Positions 6,233 through 26,361 of a stretch of 45,555 bases of DNA are shown one piece after another (the first letter of the stretch is position 1; the number at the start of each line of letters is the position of its first letter). A model generated the notes under the pieces. The model worked only from the letters and a program-made list of their open reading frames with translations, was not told the origin of the DNA and ran no database searches. The DNA is from an uncultured Planctomycetaceae bacterium (GTDB lineage: Bacteria; Planctomycetota; Planctomycetia; Pirellulales; Pirellulaceae): the NCBI GenBank assembly GCA_903863885.1, contig CAIPEB010000730.1, forward strand, positions 1-45,555. Direction: 5' to 3'. The translations under genes and the position numbers were made by a program.

Positions 6233-6997
6233 ATGCCCATGTCGGAAGAACTGCTGATCGCGGTGTTCGTGGATTTCGAGAACCTGGCCATTGGCGTCCG
6301 CGACATGGATTGCGGCGGATTCCAGATTCAACTGGTCCTCAAACGCCTGCTGGAAAAAGGCAGGATTGTCTACAAACGCGCTTATTGCGACTGGACGCAC
6401 TACTCGGATGCCCTGCGGGAGTTTCACGCTCAAGGCGTCGAGATGATCGACATTCCACAATCCAAGATGAGCGGCAAGAACAGCGCCGACATCCGGATGG
6501 TGGTCGATGCGCTCGACCTCTGCTATTCGAAATCGCACATCGATATTTTCGCGCTGTTGTCCGGCGACAGCGATTTCTCGCCGCTGGTCTCCAAATTGAA
6601 AGAGAACAACAAGCGGGTCATCGGGTGCGGCGTCAAGAAGTCCACGTCGGATCTGCTGATTGCCAATTGCGACGAGTTCATCTACTACGACGATCTGATT
6701 CGCGCGGCTCGGAAGTCGCCTGCGGCACCGAAGGGCGGGAAGAAGAAGGAAGACAAGAAACAGGAAGCGGTCGACCGTCTCCTCGAAGTGCTGAACTCGC
6801 TGGAACAGGAATACGATCCCCTGTGGGGATCGCTCTTGAAGCAGACGGTGCGACGCGTCTATCCGGGGTTCAACGAAGGGTACTACGGTTTCCGCAGCTT
6901 TTCCGAACTGCTGCAGGATGTCGCCTCTCGAGGACTGATCGAGTTGCAGTACGACGAGGGACGAGGCAATTACCAGGTGCGGCGGTCGAAGGCCTGA
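6233..6997 (+). CDS. NYN-domain (PIN-like) RNase with C-terminal OST-HTH/LOTUS domain
   Basis: This is a 254-residue cytoplasmic protein. Residues 7-160 form a NYN (LabA/DUF88) domain. It opens with VFVDFENLAI (Asp14, Asn17), continues with SADIRMVVDAL, and has the second acidic motif LSGDSDFSPLV; these Asp residues make up the PIN-like metal site. After a Lys-rich linker (GGKKKEDKKQE), residues 180-252 look like a LOTUS/OST-HTH winged-helix RNA-binding domain (LWGSLLKQTVRRVYPGFNE ... GNYQVRRS). NYN-LOTUS proteins are predicted RNA endonucleases or RNA-binding factors. A second possible ATG lies at codon 3. AAGGAAG lies about 10 bases upstream of the start. It sits 36 bases after the DUF3999 gene and may be co-transcribed with it. 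The target RNA is unknown. Confidence 0.88.
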   Translation: MPMSEELLIAVFVDFENLAIGVRDMDCGGFQIQLVLKRLLEKGRIVYKRAYCDWTHYSDALREFHAQGVEMIDIPQSKMSGKNSADIRMVVDALDLCYSKSHIDIFALLSGDSDFSPLVSKLKENNKRVIGCGVKKSTSDLLIANCDEFIYYDDLIRAARKSPAAPKGGKKKEDKKQEAVDRLLEVLNSLEQEYDPLWGSLLKQTVRRVYPGFNEGYYGFRSFSELLQDVASRGLIELQYDEGRGNYQVRRSKA

Positions 6998-7229
6998 TAA
7001 CCCGGACTGCGCGGCACGACCTGCACGTCGACGGCAAGTATGGCCGGTGTGCCACTGACTCTGTCCGTGTTTTTGGGGCGTTCATCAGCCGTCGACTCGG
7101 CCTGTCTAATATCCAGTCCATAGGGGTAGGTTCTGAGTGCCGCCGTGCCACACCGGCACAGCCAGACGGCACACGAGTGAATTGACCGGTTTCTGTTTTC
7201 GCTCTACGCGAGTGTAAGGTGGAGCTTCG

Positions 7230-7985
7230 ATGTCTCGATCGATATCGGTGATGGTGACCGGATCTGCCGGACGAGTCGGAGGCGAGGCATGCAAGGCGCT
7301 CGCGGCAGCCGGCCATCGAGTCCGCGGATACGATGTGGCTCCGTCGCCGTCGGCACCCGAAGCCGTGATCGGCAGCTTGACCGATACCTGTAAACTGCGC
7401 GAGTCCATGGCGGAAATCGAAGTTCTGATCCATTGCGCGGCCGTGCCCGATGAAGATGACTTTGTTACTCGCCTGCTGCCGAACAACGTTGTGGGGCTCT
7501 ACAACGTCCTCGAGGCCGCACGCGTTGCCGGCGTGAAACGCGTGATGCTGGCCAGCACGGGGCAGGTCGTGATGGGACACGAAGGGCCCTGGCCCATCAC
7601 GCCTGAAATGTCCTACAGTCCGCGGAACTGGTACGGCTCGGCAAAAGTCCTGGCCGAAGTTGCCGGACAGGTGTACGCGCACGTCCACGGGATGAGCGTC
7701 GTCATCGTTCGGCTTGGATGGTGCCCGCGAGACAATCGGCATGCCCGGATGTTGGCGAGCGACGAGGCGGGGCAGGATGTTTATCTCAGCCCGGCGGATG
7801 CAGGACGCTTTTTCCGCTGCGCGGTGGAGACTCAGCCTGACATTCGATACTGCATCGTTTTTGTTACGAGCCGCCCGTTGCGGCGCGCCCTATACGACAT
7901 ATCGAGTGCCGAGCGATGGTTCGGCTACATGCCTCTGGACCAGTATCCGGCCGGCACCGAGATCTTCGATATCGATGCGGATTGA
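7230..7985 (+). CDS. NAD-dependent epimerase/dehydratase, uronate-dehydrogenase-like SDR
   Basis: This is a 251-residue extended short-chain dehydrogenase. The Rossmann nucleotide-binding motif is at the N terminus (VTGSAGRVGG, about residues 9-18). It is followed by an acidic-loop region (GYDVAPS), the LIHCAAVPDE block, the catalytic Ser region (LASTGQVVMG) and the active-site Tyr-x3-Lys (NWYGSAKVLAE). The length and the short C-terminal domain resemble uronate dehydrogenase, which oxidises D-galacturonate or D-glucuronate to the aldarolactone with NAD+. Many planctomycete relatives are simply labelled NAD(P)-dependent oxidoreductase. A uronate role would fit the pectin-like enzyme set further along the window, but the gene is 20 kb away and not linked by operon. 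The 232-base gap before it shows nothing obvious. Confidence 0.8.
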   Translation: MSRSISVMVTGSAGRVGGEACKALAAAGHRVRGYDVAPSPSAPEAVIGSLTDTCKLRESMAEIEVLIHCAAVPDEDDFVTRLLPNNVVGLYNVLEAARVAGVKRVMLASTGQVVMGHEGPWPITPEMSYSPRNWYGSAKVLAEVAGQVYAHVHGMSVVIVRLGWCPRDNRHARMLASDEAGQDVYLSPADAGRFFRCAVETQPDIRYCIVFVTSRPLRRALYDISSAERWFGYMPLDQYPAGTEIFDIDAD

Positions 7986-10874: not shown

Positions 10875-13800
10875 TCAACCGAAAAGTCCGTCGTCTGACA
10901 TGACGGCGTCGATCACTGCGGCGAGCGAAGGCGATTCATCGCTTTCGCCGCCGCTTTCGTTGTGTAAATCAACTGCGACCGGCTGCGCGGTTCTCTGCTC
11001 GGTGAACGCTGCGTCGATCGCGCTGGTGAACGCTCGGAATTCTTCCGCCTCGCCGGGACTTTCGCTGGTCGAAGAAGGTGCGATCGCAGCCTCGAACCCC
11101 GATGTGATTACGTCGATGGGCCGAGTGGCGGCGAACAGCGCGGAGTCCACCGCGATGCCGCTGTGTTCTCCTTCTGCGTCGATCGCCGGAGATTCGATGT
11201 CGATCGTCGGAGATACGATCTGGAGCGAGTCGCCGGAAGCCGATGCAACGTTGGGGGCGGTTCCGGCGTTTTCGCCTTCTCCCGAAGCGCTGTTCGATGC
11301 GGACGCAACGGCACGCAGGTTGTACTGGCTCGTTGAGCCTGCCAGCCGGATCAGGCGGGCCGATCCGCTCTGGCCCAGGATGCTCACCCGTCGGTCCGTG
11401 GTTGGCAATTCGATGTACAGCTTTTCGCCCGTTGATCGAGTCACGTCTATGCGAATGGTCTTGCCGTCCGCGCTCAAGGCGATTTGCTTCGCGGAGAAAT
11501 TGCTCCAATCTCCCTGTGTCGTGACCCATTCCTGACGGGTGGCGCCGGGCGTCAGTGAAACGAGCAGGCCTTGCTGCGGCGTGCTGCTCAGGAAGTCGCG
11601 GAAGCTCACGTACCTGGCCTGCCGTCCGCCGTGGCTGAGAATGTTGTTGGTGCTGTCGCCCGCGTTCAGATCGACGAGCTGTCGAGTCGTGCCCGAGGTG
11701 AGGAACGTCGGAGTGGTCATCTCAACCACGTACTTGCCGGCCGGGATGCCCTCAATCGAAAAACTCCCGTCCGGATTCGAAGTCACCGTTTTCAGAGCAC
11801 TGCCCGTGGGCTGGTTCTGAGAATTCGCGGCGAACACTTTCAACTGGACACCGCCAATCGACGACGTCGCGTTGACGACTTGCCCGCTCGAATTCCTGCC
11901 GCGCGATTGGACTTTGCCGGCCATTTTGAAGCCGGTGATCTCGCCGAAGTTATTTCCGGTGCCAGTCACCTGTTCGGCAAGTGTTATCGTGAACTGGTCA
12001 TTGACCGATGCCGTGCCCCCCTGCGACCCGATCGTGTCCTTGCCGTCCATGATGGGGAGGCTGTTGATTTGTCCCGTCGGCTGCGTCTCCTTGATCGTGT
12101 AAGTTCCAGGCGGCAGGTTGTCGAATGTGTAGGCACCCGTCGAGTCGGAGGTGAATTCGCGGGATACCGTGCCGCTGAAGTTGTCGGTGCCGGACAGGGT
12201 GATTTTCGCGCCGGCCCAGCCCTGCTCGCCGCTGTCCTTGACCCCATCGTTGTCGGTGTCGATGTAGACGAACCCCGACAGGCTGCTCGGCTTGAAATCC
12301 CGCACGGTAACGGTCACGGTGGCCGTGTCGGTCAAGCCGCCCGGATCGCGCGTCGTGTAGGTGAAGGTCTCCGTCCCGAGAAAATCGGCTTTGGGTTTGT
12401 AGAGGATCTTGGCGCCGCTCTCGGTGATTTCGACCGTACCGCCCTGGCTGCCCTGTGTCACGGCAGTCACGGTCAGCGTTTCATCGGCATCGGGAGCGAT
12501 CACGTCGTTCAGCAGAACGTCGAGTTTGTTGCTCTGCGAGTTCTTGGCGATGTTGAAGGCATTGTCCTTGGCATCGGGCGGATCGTTCTTGGCGGTCAGG
12601 GTGGCCGTCACGGTCGCGGTCGCCGAGCCGCCGTTGCCGTCGGAAATGGTGTAGGTAAACGTCTCGGTTCCGAACACGTTGGCCGCCGGCGTGTATTTCA
12701 CCTTGGTGCCGTTTTCGGCAATCGACACCTGACCTCCTCGGCTGCCGGAGGTCACCGCAGTGATCGTCAGCGTTTCGTTTGCGTCGGGTGCGGACGAGTC
12801 GTTGGCCAGTACGTTGACGAGGTTGTTGCTGCTGTCCTCGTCGACAGTCACTGTGTCCGCAACGGCCGTCGGGTTGTCGTTCTTGGCATTTACCGTGACG
12901 GTCACGGTTCCCGTATCGGTCAACCCGCCCGATCCCGCGCGATCGGTAATCGTGTACGTGAAAGTCTCGGTGCCCTTGAAATTGGCGGCCGGCTTGTAGA
13001 GGACCGCCGTACCGCCGCTCGCGATGGTGACCGTGCCGCCGTTGCTCGAAGTTCCGACAGATGTAATGCGCAGCGATTCGCTCGGTGCGCCGGCATCCGG
13101 GTTCGCGGTCAGGTCGTTTTCCAGCACGTTCAGTGTCACCGAAGCGCTGTCTTCATCGACCGCCTTGGCGCCGTTGAACACGTCGTCCACGGCGACCGGC
13201 GCGTCGTTGATCTCCGCCACCTGGACGCTCACGGTGGCAATCGCTTCATCCGAGCCGTCGCTGACCGTGTAGGTGAAGGAGTCCTGTCCGAAGAAATTGG
13301 CGGCCGGCGAGTATTTCAGCGTCTTGCCATCCGGCGCGATGGTGACTGAACTGCCGCGGCTGGAGGTGCCGACGGCGACAATACTCAGCGTTCTTCCGGC
13401 CTGGCCGCTGTCGTTAGCCAGCACGTTGAGCGAGTTGTTCGTGCTGTCTTCATTGGCCTGGAGTGCATCGTTGAGGGCATGGAAGTTCGGATTGACGATG
13501 GTCAGTGAAGTCTCACCGTAGGAAATCTCGTCGAACGGCACCATGTCGTTGGTGCCGTACAGTCCCACCTCGTGCGCCGGTGCCAGATCGGGACGGTTGC
13601 CGGTGAACGTCAGGGTGCCTGACCGATTGGCAGTGAAGGTCGCCGTGAAGAATTCAACGACGCCGGAGCCCAACCCTTGAAGCGACGGTGAAAACGAGCC
13701 GACTTCGTCGAGCAGCCCCGAGGTGATCGTCCCCGACGATCCGCCGCCGTAGGGCGCCGTGTGCACGATTGAATTTGCCGCAGCGAGATTGCCGTTGAAT

Positions 13801-16544
13801 ACCACGTCCTCGTAGATCGAAAATACGCCGTCGCGAGATCCCGTGGCGCGGATGTCCTGGACGCTGCCGTGCAGCTTGAAGGCCTGGCCGACGTTGATCT
13901 GGTTAATCGGATTGCCGTTCAAGTCGGTGACGGCCAGATTCACACGCACCTGCGGCACTTTTGCGACTGCTACCGAGACGGTTTGCGAACTCGAGTTTCC
14001 AGCCGCGTCGCTTGCGAGAATCTGCCACTGCTGCTGTCCGGCCTGACTGTTGCTCGGGGTCCAGGTCACCACGCCCGAAGACGAATTGATCGTCGCGCCG
14101 CTCGGTGCATTCTGCAGAGCGTACGTGAAACTCGTGCTGCCCTCTTCCGAAGTCTGGGCGTTGTAGGTCAGTTGAGTGCCCGCGGTCGCCGATGTGGGAG
14201 CCGTCGACGTGAACACGGGCAGCGTGGCGTCGACGGTGATTCCCAGCGCGGCGGACGGACCGCTTTCGACTCCACCGATCTCCTGGGTTGCCGTGATCGA
14301 ATGAGACCCATCCGATACCACCGACGTTCCGTTTGTCGTCACGGTGACGGTTCCCCCCGCACCGGTCGGGACCGTGGCCTGGCCAATAACCGTGCCGTCA
14401 ACACGAACGCGGACCGTCGCGCCGTCCGTCACGCCGGATACCGTGAACTGCAGCGATCTCGCCGCGGCACTGTTGTTCAAGTTCGTCAGCTTGTCGGAAT
14501 TGCTCGCGCCGGTGTCACTGGCGGCAACAAGCGATACGGCGGTCGGCGAAACGGTAGATGCCACGGCGAAATTACGCGAGGTCACTTCGCCTCCGATTGC
14601 GAGGGTCACGTCATAACCCTGCGCGCCCAGCGTCTGGCCCAGGTTGCTGGCCGGCGCAAGCCGTATCTTTCTCGACCCTGAAGCGACTCGCAACACGTAG
14701 TTTCCGCTTGCGTCCGAGGCGGTGGAGGGTTCACCGGAGTCCAGTAGGCCGTTGTTGTTCATGTCGGCATAAACGGTCATCCCCTGACGCCCCGTCTCGC
14801 CGGAGTCGCGACTCGAGTCCCTATCTGTGTCGTTGAAGATGCTTCCCTTGACTTGGCCATCACCCGCAAAAGACTGAAGCACGACCAGTTGATCCGTGCT
14901 GGTCGTCGGCAGAGCGCTGTACAGTCCGCTTTGAACGGCGGTCAACTGCCCGCGGATCGCTCCGTCGGCGTTGGAGGTGGATTGCACGTCGACGTAGGTG
15001 CCGCCGCTTTTCAGGCTGGTCAGGTTCGCAGTCGGGAATGTCCCGTTGTTGACGACCCGCTGAAATCCCGTGCCGCTCGCAGTGTACTGCGCGCCCGCGC
15101 CCAAATCGAAGAAGCTGTTTCCTTCCTGCCCGGTTGCCCCTACGTGAAGCTGCGACCCGGTGATGTTGCCCTGCGCGATCCCCTGCACCTTCAGCGTAAG
15201 GTCGAAACGGTTGGTCGCGTTGTTCAAGGCGAGGTCCGCCGTGCCGCTTGCAGTCGTCGTGACCGCCGGAACTTCCTGAGCGCCGGTGAGGCTGCCGTTG
15301 AACAGGCTCAAGTCGTTCAACGACGAGATATCCGTGAGGAGAGACAGGTCCAGAATCTGGCCGAACACGGTGAATCCGCCGTTCTGCAAGTCGAGATTGG
15401 CGTCGTTGTCGACGAGATTGACGAAGAACTGGCTCGTGGCGCTGTCCGGGTTTCCACCCACTTTCGCCATCGCCAGAGTGCCGACCCGGTTGACGTGCGG
15501 GAAGATCTTCCAAGCGACATTGGTGCCGCCCGTGCCGGTGGGAGTCTGTTTCACCGTCACCGTGTTGTTCGCGTCGTTCACCGCCGTGATATCGAACATA
15601 TTGCTGCCGCTCAGTCCATCCGTGCGACTGCCGAGCCGGATGCGGTCCCCGACAACCACTTGACTCAGGTCGATGTTCGATCCGAGTTGAACCACCGCGC
15701 TGCCCGACGTTACCGTCGCCGTATTTCCGCTGAGTTTTGCCCAGTTGTCGAATTCGTTCTGGATCGCCGAGTCCGTCGCGACCGACGTGAATTGGCGGTT
15801 CACCGAGGGGTCTTCGAACGACGTGGTGGCCGATTTGAATCCGCCCCCCTGCAGCACAAAGCCCGGTATGTAGCGGTGGAAGAACGAGTTGGCATAGTCG
15901 CCGTCGTTCACGTATTTCAGGAAGTTGTTTACGGTGACCGGCGTTGTGTCGGAGAACAGCTCGATGGGAATTGATCCGAGAGTGGTCTGAACCGTAACGA
16001 TCTGATTCGCGGTGTAGACGATCTGGATCTGGTCGTCCGCTTTCGGAACGTAGTTCTCGTATTCCGTGTTCAATTGGCCGTTGACGAACATCACCAACTG
16101 GTGAGTCGCGTCCACGGTCTTGTCCATGATGTGCGACTTGTCGAATTTGGCGTTTGCGTTGTTGCCCGCCTTGCCGGCATTGGAACGCCACACGTCGAAG
16201 AAGTCCTTCAGAGTAGCGTTGCGAAGGTCGGTACCCGTTCCCGCCGGCATGCCGTCTCCGATGTGGAGCACGCCTGTCGTGTCGTGCGTGTGCGGATTGG
16301 CCACGGTGGTACCCGTCGCCGGCACGCCGATTTCGGCCGGGATTGCCACGCGATCGCCGTCAATGAAGATCGCCAACTGGCCGGTCGTGTGATCTGACGT
16401 CCCCGCATGCATCAGCCAGCGCGGTTCCAGAAACTCGCATCCTCGCGAACCCGAATTGCGGCGGTCTGCCCGCCGGATTTTCTTCTTGATTTCGGTGAGT
16501 TTTCGCAGCCAGTGTGAGGGGCGACCGTGGTTTGACGATGTCAT
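10875..16544 (-). CDS. Giant secreted multidomain protein: LEPR motif, cyclophilin, CHRD, Ig/cadherin-like and SdrD-B-like modules
   Basis: The protein has 1889 residues. A basic N terminus leads to the LEPR motif (CEFLEPRWLMHAG, residues 37-49), a planctomycete N-terminal signature of exported or surface proteins. Residues 53-180 match a segment that often precedes such cyclophilins (HTHDTTGVLHIGDG ... TLKDFFDVW). Residues 183-400 are a peptidyl-prolyl isomerase (TVQTTLGSIPIELF, FFHRYIPGFVLQGGG, RVGTLAMAKVGGNPDSATSQFF), split by an insert of about 85 residues. Residues 412-540 form a CHRD domain (SLTGAQEVPAVTT). An SdrD-B-like domain follows (GSIFNDTDRDSSRDSGE), then Ig-like domains and a cohesin-like segment. 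Four tandem cadherin-like repeats each carry NVLxND and FTYT motifs, and after them come another SdrD-B-like (GFVYIDTDNDGVKDSGEQ) and a carboxypeptidase-regulatory-like domain. There is no sorting anchor. It is probably an extracellular matrix or adhesion protein; the PPIase may be active or structural. Confidence 0.88.
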   Translation of the reverse strand: MTSSNHGRPSHWLRKLTEIKKKIRRADRRNSGSRGCEFLEPRWLMHAGTSDHTTGQLAIFIDGDRVAIPAEIGVPATGTTVANPHTHDTTGVLHIGDGMPAGTGTDLRNATLKDFFDVWRSNAGKAGNNANAKFDKSHIMDKTVDATHQLVMFVNGQLNTEYENYVPKADDQIQIVYTANQIVTVQTTLGSIPIELFSDTTPVTVNNFLKYVNDGDYANSFFHRYIPGFVLQGGGFKSATTSFEDPSVNRQFTSVATDSAIQNEFDNWAKLSGNTATVTSGSAVVQLGSNIDLSQVVVGDRIRLGSRTDGLSGSNMFDITAVNDANNTVTVKQTPTGTGGTNVAWKIFPHVNRVGTLAMAKVGGNPDSATSQFFVNLVDNDANLDLQNGGFTVFGQILDLSLLTDISSLNDLSLFNGSLTGAQEVPAVTTTASGTADLALNNATNRFDLTLKVQGIAQGNITGSQLHVGATGQEGNSFFDLGAGAQYTASGTGFQRVVNNGTFPTANLTSLKSGGTYVDVQSTSNADGAIRGQLTAVQSGLYSALPTTSTDQLVVLQSFAGDGQVKGSIFNDTDRDSSRDSGETGRQGMTVYADMNNNGLLDSGEPSTASDASGNYVLRVASGSRKIRLAPASNLGQTLGAQGYDVTLAIGGEVTSRNFAVASTVSPTAVSLVAASDTGASNSDKLTNLNNSAAARSLQFTVSGVTDGATVRVRVDGTVIGQATVPTGAGGTVTVTTNGTSVVSDGSHSITATQEIGGVESGPSAALGITVDATLPVFTSTAPTSATAGTQLTYNAQTSEEGSTSFTYALQNAPSGATINSSSGVVTWTPSNSQAGQQQWQILASDAAGNSSSQTVSVAVAKVPQVRVNLAVTDLNGNPINQINVGQAFKLHGSVQDIRATGSRDGVFSIYEDVVFNGNLAAANSIVHTAPYGGGSSGTITSGLLDEVGSFSPSLQGLGSGVVEFFTATFTANRSGTLTFTGNRPDLAPAHEVGLYGTNDMVPFDEISYGETSLTIVNPNFHALNDALQANEDSTNNSLNVLANDSGQAGRTLSIVAVGTSSRGSSVTIAPDGKTLKYSPAANFFGQDSFTYTVSDGSDEAIATVSVQVAEINDAPVAVDDVFNGAKAVDEDSASVTLNVLENDLTANPDAGAPSESLRITSVGTSSNGGTVTIASGGTAVLYKPAANFKGTETFTYTITDRAGSGGLTDTGTVTVTVNAKNDNPTAVADTVTVDEDSSNNLVNVLANDSSAPDANETLTITAVTSGSRGGQVSIAENGTKVKYTPAANVFGTETFTYTISDGNGGSATATVTATLTAKNDPPDAKDNAFNIAKNSQSNKLDVLLNDVIAPDADETLTVTAVTQGSQGGTVEITESGAKILYKPKADFLGTETFTYTTRDPGGLTDTATVTVTVRDFKPSSLSGFVYIDTDNDGVKDSGEQGWAGAKITLSGTDNFSGTVSREFTSDSTGAYTFDNLPPGTYTIKETQPTGQINSLPIMDGKDTIGSQGGTASVNDQFTITLAEQVTGTGNNFGEITGFKMAGKVQSRGRNSSGQVVNATSSIGGVQLKVFAANSQNQPTGSALKTVTSNPDGSFSIEGIPAGKYVVEMTTPTFLTSGTTRQLVDLNAGDSTNNILSHGGRQARYVSFRDFLSSTPQQGLLVSLTPGATRQEWVTTQGDWSNFSAKQIALSADGKTIRIDVTRSTGEKLYIELPTTDRRVSILGQSGSARLIRLAGSTSQYNLRAVASASNSASGEGENAGTAPNVASASGDSLQIVSPTIDIESPAIDAEGEHSGIAVDSALFAATRPIDVITSGFEAAIAPSSTSESPGEAEEFRAFTSAIDAAFTEQRTAQPVAVDLHNESGGESDESPSLAAVIDAVMSDDGLFG

Positions 16545-22887: not shown

Positions 22888-25800
22888 TCATCGCTGCGAA
22901 ACGCCCTCAGCGGGCGATGTGTTCTGGTCGCTGCCGAGCGGGATCAGAAACGCATCCAGTTCGCCGTCCTTGAGAATCGCGTCAACGCGTCCCGACCTGA
23001 GCCCCGTGCGAAGATCCTTGACGAAACGGTTTGGGCCCAGGCGATATTTGCGGACGACCGTCGCCTCGGCCGTTTGCCTGAGCATTTCGCGCCGGGCCAG
23101 AATCAAGGGGGCCAGCGGATCGCCCGTCTTGTCGTCGAACGCAGCAGTCCAGGCAGCGAATGACTCGCCGGTTGTCCGATCCACCACGGTGACTTCGTGC
23201 TTTCGCTCAATAATGCGGCTCCGGCACTTCTTGAGCGGGCGCGACTCGATATCCGCCTCGAGTCGCGGGAGGCAAGGGTCGAGAAGCACGCAGCGGACGC
23301 GGACGATTTCGCGATCCGCGTCGCCGCGATTCAACTGGTGAAGGCCGCACTCGCGGGCCAGCAGCGAGTAGGCGCCGGCGCCGTCGATTCGCAGCGCGAT
23401 GTTGTCCTCTCCCGAGTCTGGCTGGGAATCGTCGAGCACCTGGACTTCATACTTGTGCCTGGCCGCCAGGGCGATGTACATGCGGGCAAGTCTTTCGACG
23501 CCGTCGAGACGCTTGCCGCGCGAGCCGACCTTGTTCAGCATCAGGACCGCGTCGCCCAGGTATTTCGGGTCGCGGTTCGAGGCGAGGTACTCGAATTGCG
23601 CGATCTCGACCTCAAGTCCTCTCAGGCGGTCTTGTATCCTCGGGGCACTGCCGCGTGGCACATCCTGTTGGCACAAGGACTCCGCGAAGACCCGGACCGC
23701 GTCGGAAAGTTCCTCCAGACGCGAGAGCACCGTGTCGCAGCGATAGATATGATCGGAGACTCTCTGCGCTTCTTCGGCGTTGTCCCAGAACCTCGACTCG
23801 GCCATCCGCGACAGCATCGTTGATTTGATTCTGGACAGCGACGCTGCCTGTTCGCGCAGGCCGGCGCAGCGGGTCTCGAGTTGCCTGGCCTCGCTGCGGA
23901 GCGTCGTGATCTTGCTCGGAGGGCTGAGCGGCTTTTCCCGCTCGGGCTGATCCGCCACGACGATGTCGACGCGGACTGAACCGCTGCGCATGGCGAGACG
24001 CACGACCGATCCGTCCCGCAATTCGCCGCACGCGATCGATCGCGCAAGCGGCTGCAGCACCATGCGCTCGACAGTCCGCTTCAAGGGGCGTGCGCCGAAC
24101 GTCGGAGAATAGCCCTCGTTCAGCAGCGGAACCAGCAACCCCGGATCGATCTCGACGATCAGGTTGCGTTGCCGGATGCCGCTGCGCTGCAATACCCGCT
24201 GGACTTCGCGCCGGGCGATGCGTTCCGCGGTCTCCTGCGACAACGGGCGGAAATGGACGATGCGGTCGATGCGGTTCAAGAACTCCGGACGAAAAGCCTG
24301 GAACAGATCACGGTGCGGCGCGGTGGGTGAATGGCCTGTTTTTTCACTGCCGCTGAATCCTATCGAAGGAGACATTGGCGCGGAATTCCCGACGTTCGAG
24401 GTCAGAATAATGACCGTATGCCGAAAGTCGGCCTTCTTGCCCTGGCCGTCCGTAAGTCGTCCCGCGTCGAATATCTGAAGGCATAGATCAAAGACGTTCG
24501 GGTGTCCTTTTTCGATTTCATCGAGAAGGATGATCGAGAAAGGACGCTCGTTGACCACAGAGGTCAGGAGTCCGGGCTGGGCTCCTCGGCCGATCAGCCG
24601 TTCGTAACTCTCGTAGGAAGCGAATTCGCTCATGTCGAACCGGGTCAGCCGGTTCGCGTCCCCGAAACAATACTCCGCCATGGCCCTTGCCAATTCGGTT
24701 TTTCCGACGCCCGTCGGGCCCACGAACAGCAGCACGCCGAATGGTTTTGAGGGATCGGTCAGCCGCGCTTTGATCAGCGTCACGAGATCGACGGCGGCGT
24801 CCACGGCCTCGGGCTGGCCCATGACCCGCTCCTCGAAGAAACTGCGGACTTCGCGGGCCTGCAGCGGAATCTCGTCATCGAGCAGGTCCGTCGGCATACC
24901 CGTCGACTCGTGGATCGCATTGAGGATATCCCGCACGTCAACGGAGCGGTGTGTTTCCCTGATCTCGCTGAGAAGCCGTCGCAGGACAAGCAGCGCCCGG
25001 CCCGGAAGCACGGCCGAACCGCCGTAGTACTCTGCCAGATCCAGAAGTCGATGAATCAGCGGCAGGGGCAGCTCACGATTGGATTCCGCCGCCACCGCCT
25101 CGACGATCTGTTGAGTTGCGGGTGCGTCAGCGGGCAGCATCTTGACGGTTCGGAACGCGCGTGCGAGCGAAGCGACCGAACCGAGCCCCGTCTGGAACGC
25201 TTCTCCGGTGCTCTCGCCGATCAATCGCAATTCGCCGCGTTCGATGTGCGGAACCAGGGACATCGCGACGTTCACGCTGGAATTGCTGGACCGGCCGACC
25301 CAGAGCAGTTCGCTGAAATTCGGCACGTAGAGCACGACACGCTTCGGGACGCGGATTGCCGCAAGCAGATCGTTCAGCCGCGTTTCCCATTCGCCCAGGT
25401 AATGTGTGCCCGTCATGAAATCTGCAGGCGTCATCTGCAGCACGTGCCAGGGCGGATTCTCGGCCGACAGGCGGTGAGCAAGTTCGTAAACGGCGGCCGT
25501 CTTGCCCACCCCGGAGTCGCCGAGCAGCGCAACCGACTGTCGCTGTTCGATCGCCTGCCGCAGGATGGTCACGTATTCCTCCTGCAGGTGCGACCGCGGC
25601 AGGTTGCTCAACTCCGACGGTCGAGTCAGCACCGTGCCGAACTTTTCCAGTTGTTCGGCATCGACGTGTTCCGCGCAGTACTTTTTCAGCCACTCGCCAA
25701 GCCGGCGCAGGCCGTATGCCGAATTCGCCTGGACAGCCGCCATGGCCTGGTTTGCCAATGCGACGTTGGGACGCAGCCAATCGAGAGCGCCGGCGAAATT

Positions 25801-26361
25801 CTGCAGGTGATATTCGGCCGTTTGCGCACAGATTCGTGCCACATCAGCGTCGCTGTCCAATCCAATCCGTTCGACAAGCGGCCCGAGGACGTCCGTCGAA
25901 GGAGCGTCTCGCAGGCCTGCCGCTGCGTTTTCCCGCACCCGCCAGTTGTCGTCGTTTTGCAGCAATCGCAGGAGTCGATCGTGAAAAACGCCTCGCTGCG
26001 CGCAGATGGCCGCGGCAACCCGACGCACATCTCCGTCGGAATCGTTCAGCAGTTGCTCGACGACTGCCAGGTTCTGCCACGTCGAATGCGACTGGATGGC
26101 CTCGGCCAGCCCGAATCGCACCATGGCGTCGCGATCGGCGGCGATGTCGGCCACTCGCTGCAGGACCCGGTCGTCGGTTGAAACGCAAGCCAAGGAAATG
26201 GCTGCACGCCGCAGAATACTCTCCGTGGAATTCAGCAGTTCCAGAATGGCTTCGGGTGCGCCGCCGGTTGCGGTCTTCAACAGTTCGACAAGACGCCCGA
26301 ACTCATCCCGTGCTCCGGCCCGTATGGCCTCGACGACTGCGAGTATCTCGTCGCTGATCAT
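22888..26361 (-). CDS. ClpA/ClpC-type AAA+ unfoldase fused to a GGQ-less RF2-like domain
   Basis: The protein has 1157 residues. Residues 1-210 are HEAT-like helical repeats. AAA+ module D1 has Walker A GDSGVGKT (281-288), but at the Walker B position it reads LYVPNFSELL (Pro347-Asn348) instead of DE, so it is probably inactive. Module D2 has Walker A GPTGVGKT (548-555), Walker B LLDEIEKG (Asp614-Glu615), the sensor ILTSNVG, an IGF tripeptide (667-669) and the FRPEFLNRID arginine finger. Residues about 817-1145 align with peptide chain release factor 2. The matching blocks are SRFWDNAEEAQRV (858 onward), DAVLMLNKVGSRGKR (937-951), ARMYIALAARHKYEVQVLDD, GAYSLLARECGLHQLNR (Tyr998, His1008) and VRKYRLGPNRFVKDLRTG (ending at 1120). 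The GGQ loop and the SPF stop-codon motif are absent. It follows a Kup gene by 27 bases on the same strand. I infer a ribosome-docking unfoldase. Confidence 0.88.
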   Translation of the reverse strand: MISDEILAVVEAIRAGARDEFGRLVELLKTATGGAPEAILELLNSTESILRRAAISLACVSTDDRVLQRVADIAADRDAMVRFGLAEAIQSHSTWQNLAVVEQLLNDSDGDVRRVAAAICAQRGVFHDRLLRLLQNDDNWRVRENAAAGLRDAPSTDVLGPLVERIGLDSDADVARICAQTAEYHLQNFAGALDWLRPNVALANQAMAAVQANSAYGLRRLGEWLKKYCAEHVDAEQLEKFGTVLTRPSELSNLPRSHLQEEYVTILRQAIEQRQSVALLGDSGVGKTAAVYELAHRLSAENPPWHVLQMTPADFMTGTHYLGEWETRLNDLLAAIRVPKRVVLYVPNFSELLWVGRSSNSSVNVAMSLVPHIERGELRLIGESTGEAFQTGLGSVASLARAFRTVKMLPADAPATQQIVEAVAAESNRELPLPLIHRLLDLAEYYGGSAVLPGRALLVLRRLLSEIRETHRSVDVRDILNAIHESTGMPTDLLDDEIPLQAREVRSFFEERVMGQPEAVDAAVDLVTLIKARLTDPSKPFGVLLFVGPTGVGKTELARAMAEYCFGDANRLTRFDMSEFASYESYERLIGRGAQPGLLTSVVNERPFSIILLDEIEKGHPNVFDLCLQIFDAGRLTDGQGKKADFRHTVIILTSNVGNSAPMSPSIGFSGSEKTGHSPTAPHRDLFQAFRPEFLNRIDRIVHFRPLSQETAERIARREVQRVLQRSGIRQRNLIVEIDPGLLVPLLNEGYSPTFGARPLKRTVERMVLQPLARSIACGELRDGSVVRLAMRSGSVRVDIVVADQPEREKPLSPPSKITTLRSEARQLETRCAGLREQAASLSRIKSTMLSRMAESRFWDNAEEAQRVSDHIYRCDTVLSRLEELSDAVRVFAESLCQQDVPRGSAPRIQDRLRGLEVEIAQFEYLASNRDPKYLGDAVLMLNKVGSRGKRLDGVERLARMYIALAARHKYEVQVLDDSQPDSGEDNIALRIDGAGAYSLLARECGLHQLNRGDADREIVRVRCVLLDPCLPRLEADIESRPLKKCRSRIIERKHEVTVVDRTTGESFAAWTAAFDDKTGDPLAPLILARREMLRQTAEATVVRKYRLGPNRFVKDLRTGLRSGRVDAILKDGELDAFLIPLGSDQNTSPAEGVSQR

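Follow-up and report, generated by a model that had tools for sequence, protein, structure and literature searches.

A fusion protein encoded in the window, the 45,555-nucleotide stretch of uncultured Planctomycetaceae DNA analysed here, carries in its second AAA+ module (D2) a conserved hydrophobic-G-F tripeptide, the best reading of which is that it probably docks to the ClpP peptidase, whether the ring then threads substrates or serves as a cap. To the wider reading, in which this is a ClpP-docking tripeptide on the peptidase-facing D2 loop of an undescribed two-ring Clp/Hsp100 class acting as a translation-aimed protease, we assign a probability of roughly 0.5 from the sequence comparisons. 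Taken by itself the motif is a detail; what is unexpected is that it is conserved in a Clp class that lacks D2 pore loop 1 and bears a dead release factor.

The gene combines HEAT repeats, two AAA+ modules and a region resembling release factor 2 (RF2) in a single reading frame (Table 1). The codons of I667-G668-F669 are ATA GGA TTC, read from 24363 to 24355; the preliminary description had given the range as 24354-24363, and although the motif is real, its lower coordinate was one base too low. The codons and the Pfam scan, which places AAA_2 at residues 540-700, bear out that the tripeptide is flanked by ILTSNVG and FRPEFLNRID within the second AAA+ module. The two Walker A motifs are 267 residues apart, and Clp_N was not among the best 25 of the 27 Pfam families at E<=0.01, with HEAT_2 in the N-terminal place instead.

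Table 1. Features of the fusion gene, in window coordinates.
Feature	Residues	Position	Strand	Basis
Whole gene, HEAT - D1 AAA+ - D2 AAA+ - RF2-like fusion	1157 aa from ATG	22888..26361	-	ORF list, Pfam, NCBIfam
HEAT repeats	100-180	25822..26064	-	Pfam HEAT_2, E 5e-10
D1 Walker A GDSGVGKT, retained	281-288	25498..25521	-	Alignment
D1 pore loop GTHYLGEW, aromatic at 321	318-325	25387..25410	-	Alignment
D1 Walker-B position VVLYVPNF, without the D and E of ClpA/B/C	342-349	25315..25338	-	Alignment
D2 Walker A GPTGVGKT	548-555	24697..24720	-	Alignment
D2 pore loop 1 place, RLIGRGAQPGLLT, without the G-[YL]-x-G of ClpA/B/C	588-600	24562..24600	-	Alignment
D2 Walker B IILLDEIE, intact	610-617	24511..24534	-	Alignment
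Variable loop holding the putative docking motif, low pLDDT	659-689	24295..24387	-	Alignment and AlphaFold2
IGF, ClpP-docking-type tripeptide	667-669	24355..24363	-	Codons and alignment
D2 FRPEFLNRID, with conserved R697	690-699	24265..24294	-	Alignment
D2 small domain, with sensor-2 arginine R758	707-788	23998..24243	-	Pfam ClpB_D2-small
PCRF / RF2-like region	850-1012	23326..23814	-	Pfam PCRF E 6e-12; TIGR00020 E 6e-21; HHalign
Segment matched to the RF2 catalytic domain, without GGQ	1040-1066	23164..23244	-	HHalign
RF-like C-terminal block, VVRKYRLGPNRFVKDLRTG	1102-1120	23002..23058	-	HHalign and alignment

Relatives of the fusion were collected with a profile of D2 plus tail built from the window, L102 and L020 (a Ketobacter MAG), which found matches in 54 of 392 Planctomycetota genomes at E<=1e-100, proteins of a sister group among them. 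Of the 61 places listed, 30 were taken up as loci, that of the window's own gene among them, and the 32 aligned fusions comprise 29 loci from this search together with P0001, L102 and L020. Their D2 modules share 37 to 98% pairwise identity (mean 52%), and 21 of the 32 rows are left at a 70% identity cut. Five further fusion relatives, three of them near-identical genes from a single genus, came from a later search at E<=1e-140 that covered 296 genomes of the order. Within the family to which the window belongs, tail matches at E<=1e-15 occur in 2 of 241 genomes counting the own genome, that is, in one other. The fusion-protein class is mostly seen in Planctomycetota.

The motif is conserved among these orthologues, since a hydrophobic-G-F triplet occupies the loop position in all 37 fusion relatives (33 of 37 with the stricter first-position set [ILVM]). 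Among the 32 aligned fusions, residue 667 is L in 12, V in 10, I in 8 and M in 2, residues 668 and 669 are invariably G and F, and the flanking loop columns (659-666 and 670-683) vary strongly. The definition of the motif did not draw on the five later relatives, of which one reads LGF and four read FGF; FGF is also found at the loop position of the own genome's ClpC-type protein. In these proteins [ILVM]G[FL] has a background frequency of 0.0025 per position, against which 32 of 32 at one alignment position is conservation above chance. A functionless chance tripeptide, which the shortness of the motif might suggest, is thus extremely improbable, all the more so as the five later relatives agree.

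The same loop was compared in control proteins, which were typed by the spacing of their two P-loops and not by curated labels (about 281 residues for ClpA-type, about 337 for ClpC-type and 396-414, or about 400, for ClpB-type). With this typing, [ILVMF]G[FL] is present in the D2 loop of 23 of 24 ClpA-type, 15 of 15 ClpC-type and 11 of 26 ClpB-type rows, repeats being present (23, 13 and 21 distinct sequences, respectively). These counts leave out 10 of 81 rows whose second Walker A was not matched by the search pattern, as well as L049 and L023_8556, the latter a cut sister gene, in which the pore motif was not matched. The proposal that ClpA and ClpC bear their docking motif at this very place is therefore upheld, but the accompanying statement that ClpB lacks one does not hold universally. 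Ten of the 11 motif-bearing ClpB-type rows belong to Acidobacteriota, and the D2 tree places these inside ClpB. Individually, L058, L061, L066, L070, L072, L073, L080, L088, L091 and L096 read IGF or MGF and L075 reads LGF, all with the ClpB-type P-loop spacing of about 402-413. It is possible that the ten Acidobacteriota proteins and the one other represent a ClpP-docking ClpB. The rule that ClpB lacks the motif, as stated for Actinomycetota in the available part of PMC10149685, fails for these 11 rows. Because of them, the motif appears to be a strong yet imperfect marker of ClpP partners and is not strictly diagnostic.

A quick IQ-TREE of D2 with 127 rows, rooted at the midpoint, has a branch with SH-aLRT 100 that separates 31 fusions and 29 sister proteins from the ClpA-, ClpB- and ClpC-type rows; the fusion rows form one group with a support of 87, which is below the starred level. 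The sister rows, which hold near-copies (L022/L027 and L026/L033), have G-F in the aligned columns in 28 of 29 cases, with a hydrophobic residue before it in 22. The remaining first positions (7 of 29) are not hydrophobic, giving SGF, AGF, TGF, PGF or PGL. Sister proteins are often encoded by two or three genes in a row, and L009 and L010 are single genes. The loci L021-L028, L032, L136-L139 and L200 contain such arrays of two or three related AAA+ genes, all of those examined being without D2 pore loop 1, and the third gene of the arrays is shorter and has no C-terminal tail. The arrays possibly form mixed hexamers, and the sister group with its two- and three-gene arrays offers a natural series of variants. 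In the sister tails, PCRF was found at E<=1e-5 in 0 of 15, and HHalign to RF2 covered only 33 columns at 92%; an RF2-like nature of these tails is a possibility.

The lost hydrophobic first position in seven sister proteins is one of two observations in favour of a different partner, in which case the loop would bind a protein other than ClpP, for example one recognised by a similar hydrophobic-G-F hook; the other is that ClpB-type proteins, which according to the literature do not use ClpP, can bear IGF at this place. We regard such a partner as unlikely, because both the position and the residue pattern are the same as in ClpA and ClpC, and because the neighbourhoods compared contain no recurrent candidate gene, none being found in more than three loci (several loci end at contig ends).

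The motor features of the fusion depart from those of the ClpP partners. The D2 pore-loop-1 motif G-[YL]-x-G is found in 0 of 32 fusions and 0 of 29 sister proteins and is present in the 65 control rows used, a control count that is partly circular as the controls were picked with the pore motif; the eleven set-aside rows (the ten mentioned above and L049), when read separately, each show GYVG or GYKG as their pore loop. In addition, the D1 Walker-B glutamate (E348) is present in 0 of 31 fusions, one further row being truncated there, and in 0 of 28 sister rows, and D347 and E348 are found in 65 of 65 control rows. The D1 ATPase is therefore predicted to be dead. Conversely, all 32 fusions retain D614 and E615 of the D2 Walker B, R697 and the sensor-2 R758, and the D1 pore loop has an aromatic residue at 321 in all 31 fusions that span the region (Y in 22, F in 6, W in 3). 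From these patterns, D2 is the module expected to hydrolyse ATP, and any contact with substrate would fall to D1. Processive delivery into ClpP seems doubtful because D2 pore loop 1 and the D1 Walker-B glutamate are both missing, and for the same reason an ordinary threading machine in the style of ClpA or ClpC is not established. The earlier suggestion that the protein works with ClpP rather than as a pure disaggregase thus gains from the invariant motif and from the ClpP genes described below, yet it is weakened by these two losses and by the motif-bearing ClpB-type rows.

These losses also bear on how docking would be used. The protein may dock to ClpP as a cap, an activator or an adaptor that opens, occupies or positions the peptidase, with ATP-driven changes in D2 and no D2 translocation. 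The invariance of the motif in the absence of D2 pore loop 1 and with a D1 ATPase predicted dead fits this possibility, as does the sister group, which combines a missing D2 pore loop (29 of 29) with G-F in 28 of 29. However, the aromatic D1 pore loop, kept in 31 of 31, suggests that some gripping of substrate persists, and we hold this variant of docking to be possible, though on the unlikely side. Alternatively, the protein may be a ClpP-independent remodeller or disaggregase in which the motif is a vestige of a ClpA- or ClpC-like ancestor. The loss of the D2 pore loop and of the D1 Walker B shows a rebuilt machine, and one sister gene (L133, 7861-11307, minus strand) adjoins two Hsp20 genes (6642-7547, minus strand); a vestige, however, would not have remained invariant throughout the 37 relatives amid a freely varying loop, which makes this reading highly unlikely.

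ClpP itself is encoded wherever the fusion was found. The own genome has four ClpP-family matches, of which two are strong and adjacent (C326, E 7e-83 and 6e-70), and a match at E<=1e-30 is present in 36 of 36 other genomes with a fusion relative. Since ClpP is near-universal, its presence is weak evidence, which removes a possible refutation and contributes little beyond that. ClpP genes were not detected near the fusion genes, as blastp of two ClpP proteins of the own genome, L016 and L017, gave no match at E<=1e-3 among the ORFs predicted in 35 loci (L102, L020, L170-L201 and 21.5 kb of the window); the third own ClpP locus, L018, yielded no usable ORF. A defence-system reading was rejected, as PADLOC returned only AAA-domain matches (DolB, PDC-M37B, mad8 and IetA), which we attribute to shared AAA+ similarity. 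By eye, the Ketobacter fusion gene (L020:5941-8694) lies between dapB-like and carA-like genes, and grpE-dnaK-dnaJ-like genes precede this context. The window also encodes, at 10875-16544 on the minus strand, a protein of 1889 aa in which, judged by eye, repeat modules come after a cyclophilin-like stretch.

Structure prediction gives a Clp-like model of D1 and D2. An AlphaFold2 monomer of residues 236-1157, computed with 44 aligned rows, has a mean pLDDT of 80 and a pTM of 0.66, with most of D1 and D2 above 90. The best Foldseek rows for the D1-D2 model are ClpC chains of ClpC-ClpP complexes, and VIA-align matches it to ClpC 9gi1 (Z 36.8, rmsd 7.4, 556 aligned) and ClpA 6w20 (Z 36.0, rmsd 6.2, 526 aligned). 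The pLDDT falls below 50 at model residues 433-442, equivalent to 668-677, a range that takes in G668 and F669 and not I667. As to whether the loop is exposed in models, this low confidence agrees with flexibility, but pLDDT is not a measure of exposure. IGF loops are described, in the part of PMC9035409 that was available, as flexible and as docking in hydrophobic sites of ClpP.

The C-terminal tail is related to release factors. The NCBIfam prfB model matches residues 847-1012, PCRF exceeds the Pfam cut-off in 8 of 9 fusions scanned, and in HHalign the tail (three rows) matches the RF2 of relatives with 99.5%, E 2e-23 over 294 columns. The RF-like domain folded alone yielded a poor model (mean pLDDT 53.5), thus the RF2 entries that head its Foldseek rows (best E 1e-5, TM about 0.25) are supporting only. 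GGQ is found at the catalytic place in 0 of 32 fusions, the GGQ region of RF2 being aligned to residues without it; a GGQ string occurs in one fusion, L020, within a helical region. The SPF stop-codon motif is likewise found in 0 of 32. As the own genome has separate RF1 and RF2 genes elsewhere, the tail does not serve as the release factor of the cell. Homology points to a possible link of the tail with the ribosome. By analogy with ClpA topology, a domain behind D2 would probably lie on the ClpP-facing side, where it could obstruct. Within the open-licence PMC papers searched, among them PMC7159879 and PMC6514570, the available text contained no description of a Clp–release factor fusion, and 'Clp' is absent from the main text of PMC6514570.

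Taken as a ClpP-docking protease, the protein would form a ring of six subunits seated on ClpP through the G-F loops. D2 would burn ATP and move the ring, any threaded substrate would be held by the D1 pore loops, and the dead release-factor domain would serve as an adaptor to ribosomes or to substrates linked with translation, which would make the complex a ClpP protease directed at translation. A more specific scheme is doubtful: here the new class would couple ClpP directly to the translation machinery, in that the pseudo-release-factor would read the ribosomal A site, or else a stalled complex, and ClpP would receive from the docked ring either the nascent chain or a protein bound to the ribosome. 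If true, this would amount to ribosome-associated proteolysis within one polypeptide, driven by a D2 motor without its own pore loop. Docking as such, if true, would define a ClpP partner class beyond ClpA, ClpC, ClpE, ClpX and ClpI, with an active ring that has no pore loop 1; it would make the uncoupling of docking from threading in a Clp motor testable, and the dead release factor in the fusion would connect proteolysis with the ribosome both directly and physically.

The protein shares with ClpA and ClpC the two AAA+ modules, the short D1-D2 spacing, the hydrophobic-G-F loop and an intact D2 ATPase, but it differs from them in the missing D2 pore loop 1 and D1 Walker-B glutamate, in HEAT standing where a Clp N domain would be (Pfam, best 25 of 27 families), in the RF2-like tail and in its separate side of the D2 tree. 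It resembles ClpB/Hsp104 in D2 sequence (TIGR03346 match), whereas the spacing of 267 leaves no room for an M-domain and D2 pore loop 1 is missing. With RF2 (prfB) it has the PCRF domain and the C-terminal block in common over the 294 HHalign columns, but catalytic GGQ and SPF are missing in 32 of 32. Torsins, which are said to be ClpB-like AAA+ proteins without a normal pore loop, have reportedly also given up a threading feature; unlike the fusion they are eukaryotic, with a single AAA+ module and reportedly no ClpP link. ClpI of Actinomycetota is a separate double-ring Clp class with an LGF-type loop in the subclass ClpIa and with intact ATPase modules and unfolding motifs, according to the available part of PMC10149685. 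Compared by this description only, the fusion is unlike ClpI in that its D1 Walker B and D2 pore loop are missing, and 'release factor' was not found in the available text on ClpI (PMC10149685).

The RF-like tail was also used in a plasmid search, which gave two records, both annotated prfB. Furthermore, nine 318-aa ORFs of genome G042 show weak matches (E 7e-5 to 1e-3) to the first two thirds of the PCRF profile and are perhaps copies of a repeated mobile gene.
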